From contig CANLUT010000004.1 in the NCBI GenBank assembly GCA_947494335.1, positions 62,001 through 126,000 of the forward strand: DNA of 64,000 bases, read 5' to 3'. This document shows positions 51,813 to 58,811 of this stretch, piece after piece. A program made the position numbers and the translations under genes. The notes beneath the pieces were generated by a model. It saw only the letters and a list, made by a program, of their open reading frames with translations. It was not told the DNA's origin and did no database searches. Numbering within the stretch: position 1 is the stretch's first letter; each line of letters starts with the position of its first letter. Origin of the DNA: Oligoflexales bacterium. Lineage in GTDB: Bacteria; Bdellovibrionota_B; Oligoflexia; Oligoflexales; RGVZ01.

Positions 51813-52729
51813 TTTTCCACAACCCCCACCATGCCCATTCCGTTTGCCGGCTTTCGGGCGCGTTCACGAAGAAATGGCAAAGCGACCCCCGAAAACAAAA
51901 TAATTGTTGATCCAATCAATGCGTCCTTGTCAGGAATTGTTGCAAAGAAAAGAGCGCCCACAAGCAGATTAAACACTGGTGTTGTATAACTTGCCGCACC
52001 GACCAAAGCCGCAGGTGCCAGCTGGTAGGCTTGGGTCATAAATAATTGCGCAACCGAAGCGAATAATCCAGCTGCTATGAGCATAAACCAAGACCTTGTA
52101 TCTGAGGGCCATACAAAACCATCAAGCGCAAACCATACGCCATGCATGATCGTAGCAACCAGGCAGAAATAAAAGACGACCGTCAACGGAGGATTGGAAC
52201 GACCGGCTCGCGAGATCATCATGTATGCGGAACCCGCAAACGCACCCGACGCAAGAGCAACCGAGCGACCGACAAGCTCATCACCCCCTGAAAAAGAAGG
52301 TTTATACAGCAAATAAAGTCCAACGAGCCCCATAAACACAGCCAACCATCCTAGACGGGTGTTCGGCTGTCGAAGAACTATGGGAGACAAAGCCGCGATC
52401 CAAACAGCGTTGAACGCATGTAAAAACGAGGCTTCTCCAAGACCGATCATGTGAATCGCAGAGAAAAGCCCCATCACTGAGAGGGTTCCGAAAAATCCTC
52501 TCGCCCATAGAGACCATCGCATATCGCCAAAAAGATGACGAGCCCCGTCAGCTGGCCCGTAACGCACAAAGGACACGATAAGAACAAAGGCCAGGTTGAC
52601 TGCGACTCGCATAAAAGAAGCAGTCAGAGCGGATGCCTCGGAGTCCCACATTTTCACCTGGTAAATAAACGCCCCCATGGCGGCGAACAGTAAGCTCGCG
52701 ACAACCATGTAGACGACACCACGATTCAC
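51809..52729 (-). CDS. EamA/DMT-family transporter
   Basis: 306 residues, about ten membrane helices in two EamA repeats (for example SLWARGFFGTLSVMGLFSAI and LIAAGLFASVAQLFMTQAYQ). Exports or imports small metabolites in the inner membrane; the substrate cannot be told from sequence. GTG start overlaps the stop of the cyclophilin gene (GTGA), as tadA does in turn, so the three are translationally coupled. Confidence 0.8.
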   Translation of the reverse strand: MNRGVVYMVVASLLFAAMGAFIYQVKMWDSEASALTASFMRVAVNLAFVLIVSFVRYGPADGARHLFGDMRWSLWARGFFGTLSVMGLFSAIHMIGLGEASFLHAFNAVWIAALSPIVLRQPNTRLGWLAVFMGLVGLYLLYKPSFSGGDELVGRSVALASGAFAGSAYMMISRAGRSNPPLTVVFYFCLVATIMHGVWFALDGFVWPSDTRSWFMLIAAGLFASVAQLFMTQAYQLAPAALVGAASYTTPVFNLLVGALFFATIPDKDALIGSTIILFSGVALPFLRERARKPANGMGMVGVVEK

Positions 52730-53259
52730 AAGGATGACTCAACAACCGTAGCTTTATTGATTATGACGGAATCAACTGGACGATCCATAGATTCAGTCTT
52801 TACTGCACCGATGGACCTGATGACATCAACGCTGCTGGAGTCAGCTGCCTTGCCAAAGACGGTGTACTGATTATCAAGATAGGGAACTTTTTCCAGGCAA
52901 AGGAAAAACTGGCTGCCCGCAGAGTTAGGGTCCTGAGTCCGAGCCATCGAAATAACGCCCGGCTCATGAGGACGCGGATTGAATTCGGCTTTAATTGTGT
53001 AACCAGGACCACCTGTGCCGTTACCCACTGGACATCCACCCTGAATAACAAAACCTTTGATCACGCGATGAAAGCAAAGCCCATCGTAATAACCAATCTT
53101 TGTTAGGCCCAACATGTTTTTAACATGACCAGGAGCAACGTCCGGCCACATATCAATTAGGATGTCGCCTTTCGACGTCTCAAGCTTCACCTGATATTTA
53201 TTTTTGCCGAAATCAACACCAGCAACCGCTGCATCAACTTCCTGCCTGCGATTTTTCAT
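52726..53259 (-). CDS. cyclophilin-type peptidyl-prolyl isomerase
   Basis: Speeds proline isomerisation in folding proteins. 177 residues from ATG 53259; a purine-rich GGGGGAAA lies about eight bases upstream, and the longer frame adds only a poor N terminus. Active-site stretches FHRVIKGFVIQGG and AGSQFFLCL are intact. No signal peptide, so cytoplasmic. First gene of the cyclophilin-EamA-tadA group. Confidence 0.88.
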   Translation of the reverse strand: MKNRRQEVDAAVAGVDFGKNKYQVKLETSKGDILIDMWPDVAPGHVKNMLGLTKIGYYDGLCFHRVIKGFVIQGGCPVGNGTGGPGYTIKAEFNPRPHEPGVISMARTQDPNSAGSQFFLCLEKVPYLDNQYTVFGKAADSSSVDVIRSIGAVKTESMDRPVDSVIINKATVVESSL

Positions 53260-53391
53260 CGAATTTTTCCCCCGGAAACGAGCTATTAGCTTATGTAAGT
53301 AAGACCTATCCATTAGAGCAGGTCTTACCACGTACCGAAGGGCTAAATCTACGGAAAATTAAAAAATGGATTCCAATTTAACTTTTGAAAA

Positions 53392-54537
53392 TCACGCTGA
53401 TTTGACCGTAAAGATAGCGAGACCAAGACCACTAGCAATCGGATTACCGTCTTGTACAGGAATGATCCGTAACCGATTCGCTTCCTCTTTTACGACGCCG
53501 ATATGCCACCGGATAGAATCCACCTCATGACGACCCTCAAGATCTCGCTGGACGCTATCCCAAAACTTTACTCCCGACTCTTTATTCAACCAACTGATGA
53601 TAGCAAGCTGACCATCCTGCGCTAATCGACTCTTTAGAACATTTAGCATATTCGCAAACACATCTTGCCGCATAGTCGGCCACAGGACAATCGCGGTGGA
53701 GAATCTATCTTGGGGAATGATCGATAAGTCGCCAAATGACTTCCGGACAAGTCTCACTTGCTTGCCGAAATGAGCAAGCTTATGCCTTAGATGGCGCAGG
53801 GCCTCGTTATCCTCATCCAAAATGTACACTCGAGCAGAAGGGTTTACATTGAAGATTTCCTCTACAAACGGAACAGCGCCCGTTGCACCAATAAGCAGTA
53901 TGTCCTTTGTCACGCTGACTTTACTTACAGCATGTTCAACAGCTTGATGAAATATTTTCGATTTATGAGCCAACTGGTCAATTGAAACAACATATCTAGC
54001 ATGGAGCGATGCCTGCTGAATTCGATCATTCAAATCAGTGAAAAATTTAACGCGCTCATGAACAGAGTTAACATTGAGTGCAATATTCCAACCGATAATT
54101 CTCCCTGTATGGCGATCGATGACCGGCGACATAATCTTCATGAACACCATACGACCATAGGTGGGACTTACGAATACCACGCGTTCGCGATCAGTAATTG
54201 GCAAAATGGCTTCACCCTGAAGCTTTTCCTCGCGGTTAGGTAATCTGCGAAAATTTTCAATCAACTGATACCACTCTGACACGTGAGATCCACGCTTTAT
54301 CTGGGGCAGATGTCCAAACACAAGATCGAAACCAATGTTCCAATCAACTATGTTCTGATCGGCTCCCAAAACGAAGCCGGGAACAGAGCCTTGAAAGAAG
54401 GATTGATCCACACGAGGATCGCGGTCATTCCAAAGTCTGATATCTAAGCCATAATCTCGACGATCACGGTGAATCGAATCCTTTAGCACCTTGGAAATAA
54501 GATCTGCTGTTGCTTTTTGTAGGGTCTCGATAACCAT
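53392..54537 (-). CDS. PAS-like domain plus Rossmann-like domain protein
   Basis: 381 residues, not recognised as a named family. Residues about 45-165 look like a PAS-type sensor (FVLGADQNIVDWNIGFDLVFG at 57 on, IIGWNIALNVNS at the end), resembling the ligand-binding part of MmoS/MLTR-like regulators. Residues about 205-375 look like a nucleotide- or SAM-binding Rossmann fold: KDILLIGATGAVPFVEEIF, VYILDEDNEALRHLRHKL and FSTAIVLWPTMRQDVFANML. A methyltransferase controlled by a sensor is possible but catalytic residues are not clear. Single gene. Confidence 0.4.
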   Translation of the reverse strand: MVIETLQKATADLISKVLKDSIHRDRRDYGLDIRLWNDRDPRVDQSFFQGSVPGFVLGADQNIVDWNIGFDLVFGHLPQIKRGSHVSEWYQLIENFRRLPNREEKLQGEAILPITDRERVVFVSPTYGRMVFMKIMSPVIDRHTGRIIGWNIALNVNSVHERVKFFTDLNDRIQQASLHARYVVSIDQLAHKSKIFHQAVEHAVSKVSVTKDILLIGATGAVPFVEEIFNVNPSARVYILDEDNEALRHLRHKLAHFGKQVRLVRKSFGDLSIIPQDRFSTAIVLWPTMRQDVFANMLNVLKSRLAQDGQLAIISWLNKESGVKFWDSVQRDLEGRHEVDSIRWHIGVVKEEANRLRIIPVQDGNPIASGLGLAIFTVKSA

Positions 54538-54795: not shown

Positions 54796-56331
54796 ATGAA
54801 AAGACAGCCTAAAAATCTCCGATCGCCGGTAAAACCGTTCCGGTGCGTGGCTGCCCTACTTGCACCAATCATGGTGTCAGGAGTTTTGACACCCGTCAGC
54901 TTCGCAAACGTTATTGGATCTGACATGCAGAACTTCAACGCAACTACCAGCGGCCTGGACTTCGTAACTGTTGAATCTGCGGCAACACTTGAACCAGGCT
55001 TTGCAAACTTTGGCCTTTTCATGAACTACGCAGTTAACACTCTCCCTTATTTCGAGAAAACCGATACGATCCAAAGCCGCACTAAATTTAACGACACGAT
55101 CCTAGGCGCCGACCTGAATGTTGGTTACGGTGTTACGAAACGTTTCGATCTCGGCTTGAGCTTGCCGCAAGTTGTTTCCTCGACTGTAAAAACGAGTGGC
55201 TGGAATGGGAAATTTAGAGATAACGGAAATACAGAAATTCGCGCCAATGCAAAATATCAGCTTGCTGGCGATGAAAAAGGTGGAACCGCTCTGCAGGGTG
55301 TCGTTAATTTCAATCGCACAAAAGACAACCCTTATGTCGGCGAAAGTAACTCACCAATATATTCGCTGGTATTAATCAGCAGCAAACAAATCACTCATGA
55401 AATGGGTCTTGGTGTTAACCTGGGATATCGCTGGCGAAAGGCGGGTGCACCGCTTAAAGATGCCGATCCTATCAAGCCACTTCCTAATCAGTTTATCTGG
55501 TCTGGCGCGATGAGCTACCATATCGCCTCTATCGATTCCAAAGTTATTGCTGAAGTCTTCGGAAGTAATCCTGTCAAAAAAATTGATACAAACAGCGATC
55601 GCACTGCATCTTCAGCAGAGACACTACTTGGCATCAAACATGATATTGATACAAATCTCTCGATCCATGGGGGAATTGGAACTGAAATTGACGCAGGGCT
55701 TAGCTCCCCCGATTGGCGTGCCTACCTAGGCATCAATTGGTCAACCGGACCTCGATTTGACCAACCCGCTCGCATTTCGGTGGTGGAACCTCCGGTAAAG
55801 GCTGAACCTGTTGCGAAGCCATTTGCTATTGAACCAAAGCCATACGAAAACATAACTGTTCACGACTTTATGTTTGAATTCGCGTCCGATCATGTGCTTG
55901 TTGGTCAATCCAAACAGATGTTGAAAGAGCTGGCTGACCATTTAAATCAGCCACCTAAATTCACTAAACTAATTATTGTTGGGCACACAGATTCAATTGG
56001 ATCTGCAGAGTATAACGAAACGCTCAGCAAGCGTCGCGCTGATACGATTAGAAATTGGCTAATCTCGGAGCATAAACTCGACGCAGCAAAAATTAGTACT
56101 GAAGGTCATGGCGAGCGAGAACCTGTTGCAGGCAACGGCAACTATCAGGGCCGTCAAATGAATCGTCGCGTTGAATTTAGAATCTACCGAGAAGGCATGA
56201 AAGAGGAGATTAGAAGCACAGCCAACCCGAAGGCTGCGGAGGGTGCTAAGGATCCTGGTGAAAAAGTTCCAGCCCCAAAGGGAAAACCAAAGGCAAAAGC
56301 GGGAAAACCCGCTAAACCGAATAAGAAATGA
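54796..56331 (+). CDS. OmpA-family outer-membrane protein
   Basis: 511 residues. Signal peptide to about residue 37 (GVLTPVSFA), a beta-barrel-like region 45-320 (GFANFGLFMNYAVN, FDLGLSLPQ, YRWRKAG), a proline linker and a C-terminal OmpA domain that binds peptidoglycan. The latter has VGHTDSIGSAEYNETLSKRR and STEGHGEREPVAGNGNYQ, with the diaminopimelate-contacting Asp and Arg. The last 45 residues are a charged tail (KGKPKAKAGKPAKPNKK). GAGAGGA precedes the start. First of three consecutive envelope genes. Confidence 0.87.
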   Translation: MKRQPKNLRSPVKPFRCVAALLAPIMVSGVLTPVSFANVIGSDMQNFNATTSGLDFVTVESAATLEPGFANFGLFMNYAVNTLPYFEKTDTIQSRTKFNDTILGADLNVGYGVTKRFDLGLSLPQVVSSTVKTSGWNGKFRDNGNTEIRANAKYQLAGDEKGGTALQGVVNFNRTKDNPYVGESNSPIYSLVLISSKQITHEMGLGVNLGYRWRKAGAPLKDADPIKPLPNQFIWSGAMSYHIASIDSKVIAEVFGSNPVKKIDTNSDRTASSAETLLGIKHDIDTNLSIHGGIGTEIDAGLSSPDWRAYLGINWSTGPRFDQPARISVVEPPVKAEPVAKPFAIEPKPYENITVHDFMFEFASDHVLVGQSKQMLKELADHLNQPPKFTKLIIVGHTDSIGSAEYNETLSKRRADTIRNWLISEHKLDAAKISTEGHGEREPVAGNGNYQGRQMNRRVEFRIYREGMKEEIRSTANPKAAEGAKDPGEKVPAPKGKPKAKAGKPAKPNKK

Positions 56332-56339
56332 GTTTTGAT

Positions 56340-56400
56340 GTGCTGTTTTACCTGTGCTGCTGATGTTGTTGTTGATTCTGTTGTTAAAGCTGCTGTTGAA
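56340..56400. repeat. GTT/GCT-rich simple sequence
   Basis: The 80-base gap between the OmpA-type and PKD genes is dominated by TGTTG and TGCTG units, including TGTTGTTGTTGATTCTG. It may be slippage-prone, unlike any other gap in the window. Confidence 0.6.
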
Positions 56401-56411
56401 AGGACCAGATT

Positions 56412-57350
56412 ATGAAAGAAAGATTATGGAACTCAGTTACGTGGAGATGGATTTTTAGTGCTGCACTGATTCTCACGGCTTGTAAACAAGCTGGATATGA
56501 GGTCTTGAAACCAAGAAATCAAAGCCCAAATAGTTTTGATAGCAGCAAGACACTTGCACCGACTGCCCGTTTAGAAGTGCTTGACCGTGGTACAAGTGTG
56601 ACCTGGACGTATGTTGGCAACCGCATCGAAGTCAAGCCCACAGGTGACACACTCGATCCGGATTATGTTGGTAAAGAATCTTGTCAAAACCCAGGCCTGA
56701 TCAGTGCTGATTATGATCTTGGGAATGGGACTAAGCCCTCAGTCCAAAGAACTGAATGCTCGTCCTTAGCCAGTGCGGGTCACGTATTTACAAAGTCAGG
56801 AACTTATCTTGTCAAAATGACCGTTAAGAGCAAAGACAATGAGATTGCAACCGCAAGTATGACTTTGAGAGTCATTGATAGAAATGTTGCCGCAAGTATG
56901 GCAGAGGGCGGATTCACTATTCACGCCAAACCCATTCTTGCCGAAATCAATCAGCCAGTCGTTTTCAGTGGTATTTGTGAACTTAAGGGAAAACTTTCGA
57001 TAGGTTGGAACTACGGGGATAGCGCAACCGGAGCTGGTGCTGTGACTCAACACACCTATGGTCAAGCAGGACAGTATCTTGTGACTGCGACCTGCGCCAA
57101 CGACACCGGAAAGAAATACGATGCGTCTTTGACAGTTGTTATAATGGGCGCAACTGCTCCCTCAATTCCTGCTGTTGCCGTGCCAATCCCTGGACAGAAC
57201 CCCAATCTTCCGCGAACAAACGGATGCGATCCGTCTCAAGGGCCATGCCAAAACGCGGGCCAGATTCCAAATGGAGCAACGACCGTTCCTAGTTCTTCCG
57301 GTACTGTTTGGTACTATGATCCGTTCTGTCGCTGCTACATAAGCTACTAA
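56412..57350 (+). CDS. PKD-domain lipoprotein
   Basis: 312 residues. Signal peptide and lipobox LTAC (C24). Two PKD-like beta-sandwich units: residues about 100-160 (YDLGNGTKPS... HVFTKSGTYLVKMTVKS) and 175-255 (WNYGDSATGAGAVTQHTYGQ, AGQYLVTATCAND), both with the typical G-D/N-G then Y-x-x-x-G-x-Y layout. The proline-rich tail ends in a short cysteine cluster (CDPSQGPCQ, FCRCY). PKD domains usually bind proteins or glycans outside the cell. AAAGGA precedes the start. Confidence 0.75.
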   Translation: MKERLWNSVTWRWIFSAALILTACKQAGYEVLKPRNQSPNSFDSSKTLAPTARLEVLDRGTSVTWTYVGNRIEVKPTGDTLDPDYVGKESCQNPGLISADYDLGNGTKPSVQRTECSSLASAGHVFTKSGTYLVKMTVKSKDNEIATASMTLRVIDRNVAASMAEGGFTIHAKPILAEINQPVVFSGICELKGKLSIGWNYGDSATGAGAVTQHTYGQAGQYLVTATCANDTGKKYDASLTVVIMGATAPSIPAVAVPIPGQNPNLPRTNGCDPSQGPCQNAGQIPNGATTVPSSSGTVWYYDPFCRCYISY

Positions 57351-57373
57351 TCCGACTGTAGAGCTTCATGGAA

Positions 57374-57400
57374 AGACCCACCAAACGGTGGGTCTTTTTT
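57374..57400 (+). terminator. rho-independent terminator after the PKD gene
   Basis: Stem AGACCCACC / GGTGGGTCT, four-base loop, then a T-run. It lies 23 bases after the stop and separates the two lipoprotein genes. Confidence 0.95.
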
Positions 57401-57520
57401 ATTTAAGCATTTGTTAAATAATCACCTTTTTTTAAATAATTTCGCCTGAGTTAATGCTTGCGATCACCTGGGGACATCCCCCTCAAAACAATACCTGCAA
57501 TATAGACGCGCCGCATTTGG

Positions 57521-57529
57521 TGCTATAAT
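57521..57529 (+). promoter_or_regulatory. extended -10 promoter for the cysteine-repeat lectin gene
   Basis: TGCTATAAT: a TGn motif joined to a perfect -10 box (57524-57529). The -35 region is weak, as is common with extended -10 promoters. Transcription would start about 60 bases before the ATG. Confidence 0.7.
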
Positions 57530-57595
57530 TATCGTTGAGTTTGCGGATCGCACCCCCTAACAACGACGTCCGATTCAAACGAGAGGAATATATTC

Positions 57596-58723
57596 ATGAA
57601 GTCTCTGAAATATCTGACTTTAATATGCCTTATGCTCACGGGACTGACGTCTTGCCGATTTGGCAGCAGCAATGCCGTTGGAAGAGCCCCAGCGATTATT
57701 GATCCAAAGTGTAGCGCTAAATCCTCTTCAGATTGCAGTTCAAACAGCAACTGTCAGATGAACAGTGGCGTCTGTTCCGGTACATTCAACTTCTGTAGTG
57801 GCTTTAGCTCCGAAGGCGTTTGCCCGGGGGGATCGTGTCAATGGAGTTCAGTCGATAATAGTTGCAGCATGATCAGCGGATCTGCGACGACAACAAATAC
57901 TTGCTCAGGTTACACACAATCAACATGTTCAACCGTATCGGGTTGTAAGTGGAATGGCTCCGCATGTGTATCCGAGTCCATTTCACTCAGCTGCTCCAGT
58001 TACTCAACACAGGCAACTTGCCCGACAAGCTCATGCACATGGACAGGATCGATTTGTACGTCATGTAGCACGTTCACCACCCAGGCCGCATGCTCTGTAG
58101 TCGAGGGTTGTTCCTGGAATGGCTCCAGCTGCTCCCTTTCTTCGCCGTCTAGTACAACCGGCTCCTACTGCAGCCCTCTAACTACAAACGCACAGTGTAC
58201 CGTAGCTCCCGGGTGTTATTGGGACGGGGGAGCCTGTAAACTTCTTGGAAGCGGACGCGCTCCACAGCCCGCAAAGTGCTCACCACTTGAAACTGAAATG
58301 CAATGCAAAGCCGGTGTCGGCTGTCAATGGATCGGCGCGCGCTGCCTCCGTCCGAGTGCTGGGCTCGGGACTCCTTTCGCAATAGGAGATGGCCTTAGCA
58401 GCGAGGGGACTAGCGTAAATCAACTCAGCAACTGTAGTTTTAGCGCTATCTTGCAAGCAGACGGCAATCTCACCATCAATCGTGGAAACGGTGTCCAAAT
58501 TTGGAAATCAAACTCAGGCGGAAAAGGCGGAGAGAAGCTTATTTTTCAGGCTGACGGCAACGTGGTCATTTACTCTGCGGCTAATAAGGCTGCCTGGAGC
58601 TCTGGGACCGCAAACAAAGGTGCCCAAGGACTATTGCTCACAACCAACGGAAACCTTCTTGTTGTGAGCTCTGCCAACACAGTTCTTTGGCAAAGCAATT
58701 CTGCTGTGGCAGGCTGCAACTAA
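57596..58723 (+). CDS. cysteine-module and bulb-lectin lipoprotein
   Basis: 375 residues. Lipobox LTSC (C20). Residues 39-250 hold seven modules of four cysteines, spaced C-x(7,8)-C-x(4,5)-C-x(6,8)-C, with a tryptophan after the third cysteine in most (GCKWNGSAC, GCSWNGSSC, GCYWDGGAC, GCQWIGARC). Residues 283-370 are three bulb-type (GNA-like) mannose-lectin repeats: LQADGNLTI, FQADGNVVIY, LTTNGNLLVV. The second matches the full sugar motif Q-x-D-x-N-x-V-x-Y. C280 and C374 may clamp the lectin. A surface glycan-binding protein on a disulfide-rich stalk is the likely picture. GAGAGGA lies ahead of the start. Confidence 0.75.
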   Translation: MKSLKYLTLICLMLTGLTSCRFGSSNAVGRAPAIIDPKCSAKSSSDCSSNSNCQMNSGVCSGTFNFCSGFSSEGVCPGGSCQWSSVDNSCSMISGSATTTNTCSGYTQSTCSTVSGCKWNGSACVSESISLSCSSYSTQATCPTSSCTWTGSICTSCSTFTTQAACSVVEGCSWNGSSCSLSSPSSTTGSYCSPLTTNAQCTVAPGCYWDGGACKLLGSGRAPQPAKCSPLETEMQCKAGVGCQWIGARCLRPSAGLGTPFAIGDGLSSEGTSVNQLSNCSFSAILQADGNLTINRGNGVQIWKSNSGGKGGEKLIFQADGNVVIYSAANKAAWSSGTANKGAQGLLLTTNGNLLVVSSANTVLWQSNSAVAGCN

Positions 58724-58811
58724 GTCAAGCAAAGTTCACAGATGTCACGGCGCAGGACAACCACTGCGCCGTTCTCATTTTATGATTCCTGTGAATGAAA
58801 CCTAGCGCAAT

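Follow-up and report, generated by a model that had tools for sequence, protein, structure and literature searches.

The genes at 54796–56331 and 56412–57350, both on the plus strand of the window (the whole 64,000-nucleotide stretch of an Oligoflexales contig that was analysed), belong to a real and conserved two-gene module of Bdellovibrio-like bacteria, in which an OmpA barrel is combined with a PKD lipoprotein; no description of such a module was found in the literature searched, including that on Bdellovibrio. The barrel domain of the first protein, for which the Pfam scan named no family, is, on the evidence of profile comparisons, homologous to the barrel of TraB, the myxobacterial protein of outer membrane exchange and membrane fusion, and this relationship is new for the family, TraB having so far been reported from Myxococcales only (PMC6372800). 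A third plus-strand gene (57596–58723) encodes a separate, lineage-specific lipoprotein with a predicted surface placement, and its adjacency to the pair is probably incidental. A sequence-only reading of positions 54796–58723 had assigned domains to all three proteins, and both the open reading frames and these domain calls are borne out.

The 511-residue product of the first gene is, from its open reading frame, the Pfam scan and an AlphaFold2 model, a probable TraB-like, peptidoglycan-anchored outer-membrane barrel, in which a signal peptide is followed in turn by the barrel, a short Pro/Lys-rich linker and an OmpA domain. The barrel domain (residues 41–320; 54916–55755, plus strand) aligns with positions 19–313 of the TraB profile, and the model, for which 25 aligned homologues served as input (mean pLDDT 74, pTM 0.55), places 12 β-strands within residues 70–317, ahead of an OmpA fold. 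The best solved fold matches for the barrel part, according to Foldseek, are the 12-stranded barrels FapF and NanC, although these share only ~11–15% identity with it, have no OmpA domain and occur in another gene context. The C-terminal domain (residues 360–457; 55873–56166, plus strand) scores 66.9 bits against PF00691 (gathering score 27.2), and its Foldseek matches are peptidoglycan-binding OmpA domains, some of them solved with diaminopimelate. An Asp/Arg pair serves peptidoglycan binding in OmpA domains; here it is represented by Asp399 and Arg414, which keep the canonical spacing of 15. Together, the PF00691 match, this residue pair and the predicted barrel uphold the earlier description of the protein as a peptidoglycan-anchored OmpA barrel. 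The domain and its Asp/Arg pair are shared with the OmpA/OprF family of porins (PF00691); however, the 12-stranded barrel shows no sequence relationship to the 8-stranded barrel of OmpA, and these porins lack the dedicated lipoprotein partner seen here. Homologues are present in all 43 genomes of the order, many of them through the OmpA domain only.

The second gene encodes the operon partner of the barrel, a PKD lipoprotein of 312 residues, assigned from Pfam and alignments. The spacer between the genes contains a run of GTTGTT/GCTGCT-like repeats (56340–56400) with no stable folding. The lipobox, LTAC, and the ensuing conserved motif, CKQAGYEVLK, are encoded at 56472–56510, followed by two PKD domains (56559–56879 and 56910–57149; all plus strand), with scores of 55.8 bits against PF18911 (gathering 27) and 49.6 bits against PF00801 (gathering 23.5), and with a fold match to the collagenase PKD. 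Cys24, the lipid site, is invariant in 16 aligned sequences and is followed by Lys (LTAC-K), so the +2 residue is not Asp; these are the sequence features of an outer-membrane lipoprotein, which is the predicted localization. Four further Cys columns are invariant in the family, namely, Cys91 and Cys116 in the first PKD domain, and Cys189 and Cys228 in the second, which suggests that each domain contains one disulfide. Beyond the lipobox, the family has a conserved N-terminus, C-x(1-2)-[AS]-x-Y-E-I (for example, CKQAGYEV, CRAAGYEI, CNQASYHV, CQPARYEI and CKSRYGFT), and then a variable linker. A comparable motif is found after the Cys in 3 of 116 other predicted lipoproteins encoded in the loci, but two of these three are themselves family members, leaving about 1 in the remaining 114. 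The cysteine tail that had been reported alongside the PKD domains is also present (Cys272, Cys279, Cys306 and Cys308; 57213–57347, plus strand), and from the alignment it is conserved in the three closest species only. In relation to known PKD surface proteins (the PKD of the collagenases ColG/ColH and of archaeal S-layers), both domains have the same fold; in contrast to these, the two domains carry Cys pairs (putative disulfides) and sit on a lipoprotein whose N-terminal motif is conserved and which has no enzyme domain. The same genome additionally encodes an orphan single-PKD paralogue (L080:7505–8125; G000:C1) with no full-length barrel gene adjoining it: its neighbours fall outside the barrel family, and its relatives elsewhere are paired.

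The pairing was surveyed across 43 genomes of the order and 80 named loci, and a wider genome collection was scanned using the barrel alignment as the query; the genome that contains the window measures 3.3 Mb, and the named relatives nearest to it are metagenome assemblies of the Oligoflexales/Pseudobacteriovorax type. In 18/18 Oligoflexales-type genomes that have the two-PKD lipoprotein (of the 43), its gene immediately follows that of the barrel. Barrels of a second clade have a single-PKD lipoprotein as their adjacent partner (G034, G035, G036, G037 and G038); G011 has a divergent pair, also adjacent, and G020 holds a third pair; single-PKD hits with no adjacent barrel (G001, G013 and G024:C16) were left out of the pair count. 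The gap between barrel and PKD genes ranges from −26 to 130 nt, the genes overlapping in some genomes. The identities of barrels and lipoproteins correlate (r = 0.90 for 24 pairs; 0/2000 permutations in a Mantel test), a correlation that in part reflects shared species history, and the paired state is strongly clustered on a quick tree of the barrels, with 4 changes as against 20 in shuffles. Nevertheless, the barrel family needs no PKD partner, since in most Bdellovibrionales it occurs with no recognizable one (54 of the 77 loci in which the region downstream could be read). Co-occurrence in relatives, which the earlier reading had named as a check, is therefore seen for the barrel and PKD genes, but not for the lectin gene, of which no homologue lies near the pair in the relatives' loci examined.

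Other features of these loci may be noted. The divergent neighbour of the barrel gene (53392–54537, minus strand), a weakly methyltransferase-like protein of 381 residues, adjoins it in several relatives too, and the cyclophilin gene at 52726–53331 (minus strand) is likewise kept beside it. Three genomes (L066–L068) have a gene 3′ of the PKD gene that, by eye, is FKBP-type isomerase-like. At L069:7968–11335 (G015:C45), the barrel gene, a short lipoprotein and a 268-residue OmpA-matching ORF stand in tandem ahead of the full lipoprotein, an arrangement suggestive of partial duplication. A contig titled Streptomyces griseus (L176) encodes a Bdellovibrionota-type barrel and is probably a mislabelled assembly. 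A promoter scan gave no more sites than in shuffled sequence.

The two-gene unit ends after the PKD gene, because a strong intrinsic terminator lies between it and the lectin gene (57370–57399, plus strand; a hairpin of 13 pairs at −20.4 kcal/mol and z −6.0, with T-rich sequence following it); the lectin gene has a terminator-like hairpin of its own (58747–58772, plus strand). The 375-residue lectin-gene product has a lipobox at Cys20, behind an N-terminus that reads by eye as signal-peptide-like. Residues 39–250 form seven four-Cys modules, five of which fit the strict motif C..C..C.W..C, a motif that never appeared in more than one copy in 2000 shuffles of the sequence. The probable bulb-type lectin domain at the C-terminus (residues 273–374) is similar to the mannose lectins of monocots and to L-type bacteriocins; it scores 34.4 bits against B_lectin (PF01453; cut-off 32.4) when scanned alone, but 26.8 bits in the whole protein, and one of its three QxDxNxVxY mannose motifs is full. 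The earlier description of a lectin on a disulfide stalk agrees with these modules and, for the lectin part, with the score of the domain scanned alone. Although the probable lectin domain is common to B_lectin mannose lectins and to the putidacin/pyocin L lectin-like bacteriocins, here it is a single domain borne on a Cys-module lipoprotein, and no bacteriocin architecture is apparent (73.6 bits; cut-off 275).

It had further been proposed that the three genes make up a single glycan-binding attachment system. They are indeed adjacent, on the same strand, and all encode envelope proteins, one of which offers a full mannose-type motif; we nevertheless judge this highly improbable, and the proposal is unsupported because of the terminator between the second and third genes and the behaviour of the lectin gene in relatives. 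No homologue of it lies near the barrel–PKD pair in any relative's locus examined, and in the closest relative (G036; gene order barrel–PKD–ATPase–radA–recQ) an unrelated ATPase gene occupies its place. Moreover, none of the 43 genomes contains a full-length orthologue, the Cys part or the lectin part being found only separately. Because the two parts occur in different proteins elsewhere, the protein looks like a lineage-specific combination. In the same genome, the Cys modules and the lectin domain each find their match in a protein of its own (L084:7717–8340 and L085:8356–10329). A three-gene operon was rejected owing to the intervening terminator and the lack of a lectin-gene homologue near the pair in the relatives' loci examined. 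Also rejected was the lectin protein, with its Cys stalk, as an analogue of TraA, the partner of TraB: the Cys part matches no NCBIfam model, Pfam gives just a weak match to Paramecium surface antigen (E = 0.007) and no orthologue lies near the pair.

The TraB barrel was at first without recognized relatives (PMC3325183). Residues 41–334 of the barrel protein match the NCBIfam TraB model (NF033763) collinearly (E = 1.1 × 10−4). At full length, the score is 88.8 bits, most of it from the OmpA domain, against a curated cut-off of 700 bits, which is exceeded by no protein in the 43 genomes; as the score falls so far short, the protein is a distant relative of TraB and not TraB itself. These low scores, of which 88.8 bits is the best seen for a full-length protein, and the matches of some barrel members to Phenol_MetA_deg, DUF3187 or DUF481, would also fit a reading in which the similarity reflects a generic 12-stranded fold, TraB being one of a broad barrel–OmpA family from which no function could be deduced. 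We would put this at slightly under an even chance: the TraB profile is matched by 33/34 barrel-only family members (best E = 1.4 × 10−14), collinearly and across the whole barrel, whereas those Pfam barrel families are matched by only 3–6 of the 34, and TraB is not matched by two control proteins of these loci that are barrel-like but unrelated. A control search of the same genome for Phenol_MetA_deg barrels found none.

In myxobacteria, TraA and TraB form 1:1 complexes and the OmpA domain fixes TraB to peptidoglycan; that TraA is seated on the TraB barrel is an AlphaFold prediction (PMC12045341). The barrel protein shares with TraB (NF033763; PMC3325183, PMC6372800, PMC12045341) a signal peptide, the homologous N-terminal barrel and the C-terminal OmpA domain, and both systems are operons with a lipid-anchored, Cys-containing partner. 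In contrast to TraB, it scores far under the cut-off, and the Pfam scan found no TSP_3 match that would indicate a calcium-binding linker, the linker being the short Pro/Lys-rich stretch. The partners differ as well: TraA has a PA14-like domain, TIGR04201 repeats and MYXO-CTERM, in place of which the lipoprotein carries PKD domains together with a lipobox at its N-terminus. In the Pfam scan, PA14 matched neither the PKD nor the lectin protein; TIGR04201 Cys repeats were not found over the cut-off in the 43 genomes, and a search for MYXO-CTERM gave no match, as did its control.

On balance, we think it probable, if far from assured, that the two genes are a bicistronic module on the TraB-plus-partner plan, in which a peptidoglycan-anchored outer-membrane barrel works with a dedicated outer-membrane lipoprotein. 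The barrel would reside in the outer membrane, with its OmpA domain holding the peptidoglycan, and the PKD lipoprotein would be made alongside it, most likely to form a 1:1 complex. The conserved peptide following the lipidated Cys may dock on the barrel, allowing the PKD domains, presumably stapled by disulfides, to reach out on the flexible linker and bind a protein or a glycan, either in the periplasm or at the surface; adhesion could be one consequence. The closest working model is provided by myxobacterial TraA/TraB, alike in plan but with a different partner.

Alternatively, the pair could serve envelope stability. The barrel would then act as the lineage's principal porin and tether of the OmpA type, and the lipoprotein would help to staple or assemble it in the periplasm, without a role in surface recognition. 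Small lipoproteins do serve barrel folding, OmpA barrels of this family occur throughout the phylum and are often found alone, and PKD domains can be plain spacers. We nonetheless consider this unlikely, as a linker bearing two Ig-like domains would be large for a staple, and the strong differences in linker and PKD number among the second-clade pairs are a better fit to outward reach. Bolder, and more doubtful still, is the suggestion that the pair is a Bdellovibrionota counterpart of TraAB, with the PKD lipoprotein replacing TraA as the receptor for cell–cell or cell–prey contact, and perhaps with outer membrane fusion outside the myxobacteria. By analogy, outer membrane exchange would be only a possibility, given that the PKD partner differs from TraA, that TIGR04201 stays under the cut-off and that the MYXO-CTERM search, with its silent control, was without a match.

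The phylum-wide occurrence in Bdellovibrionota of collinear relatives of the TraB barrel points to a likely ancestry for the machinery of outer membrane exchange. Moreover, part of this barrel family is tied to a dedicated lipoprotein, and would offer a simple two-protein system for studying how a peptidoglycan-anchored barrel cooperates with a lipid-anchored partner.
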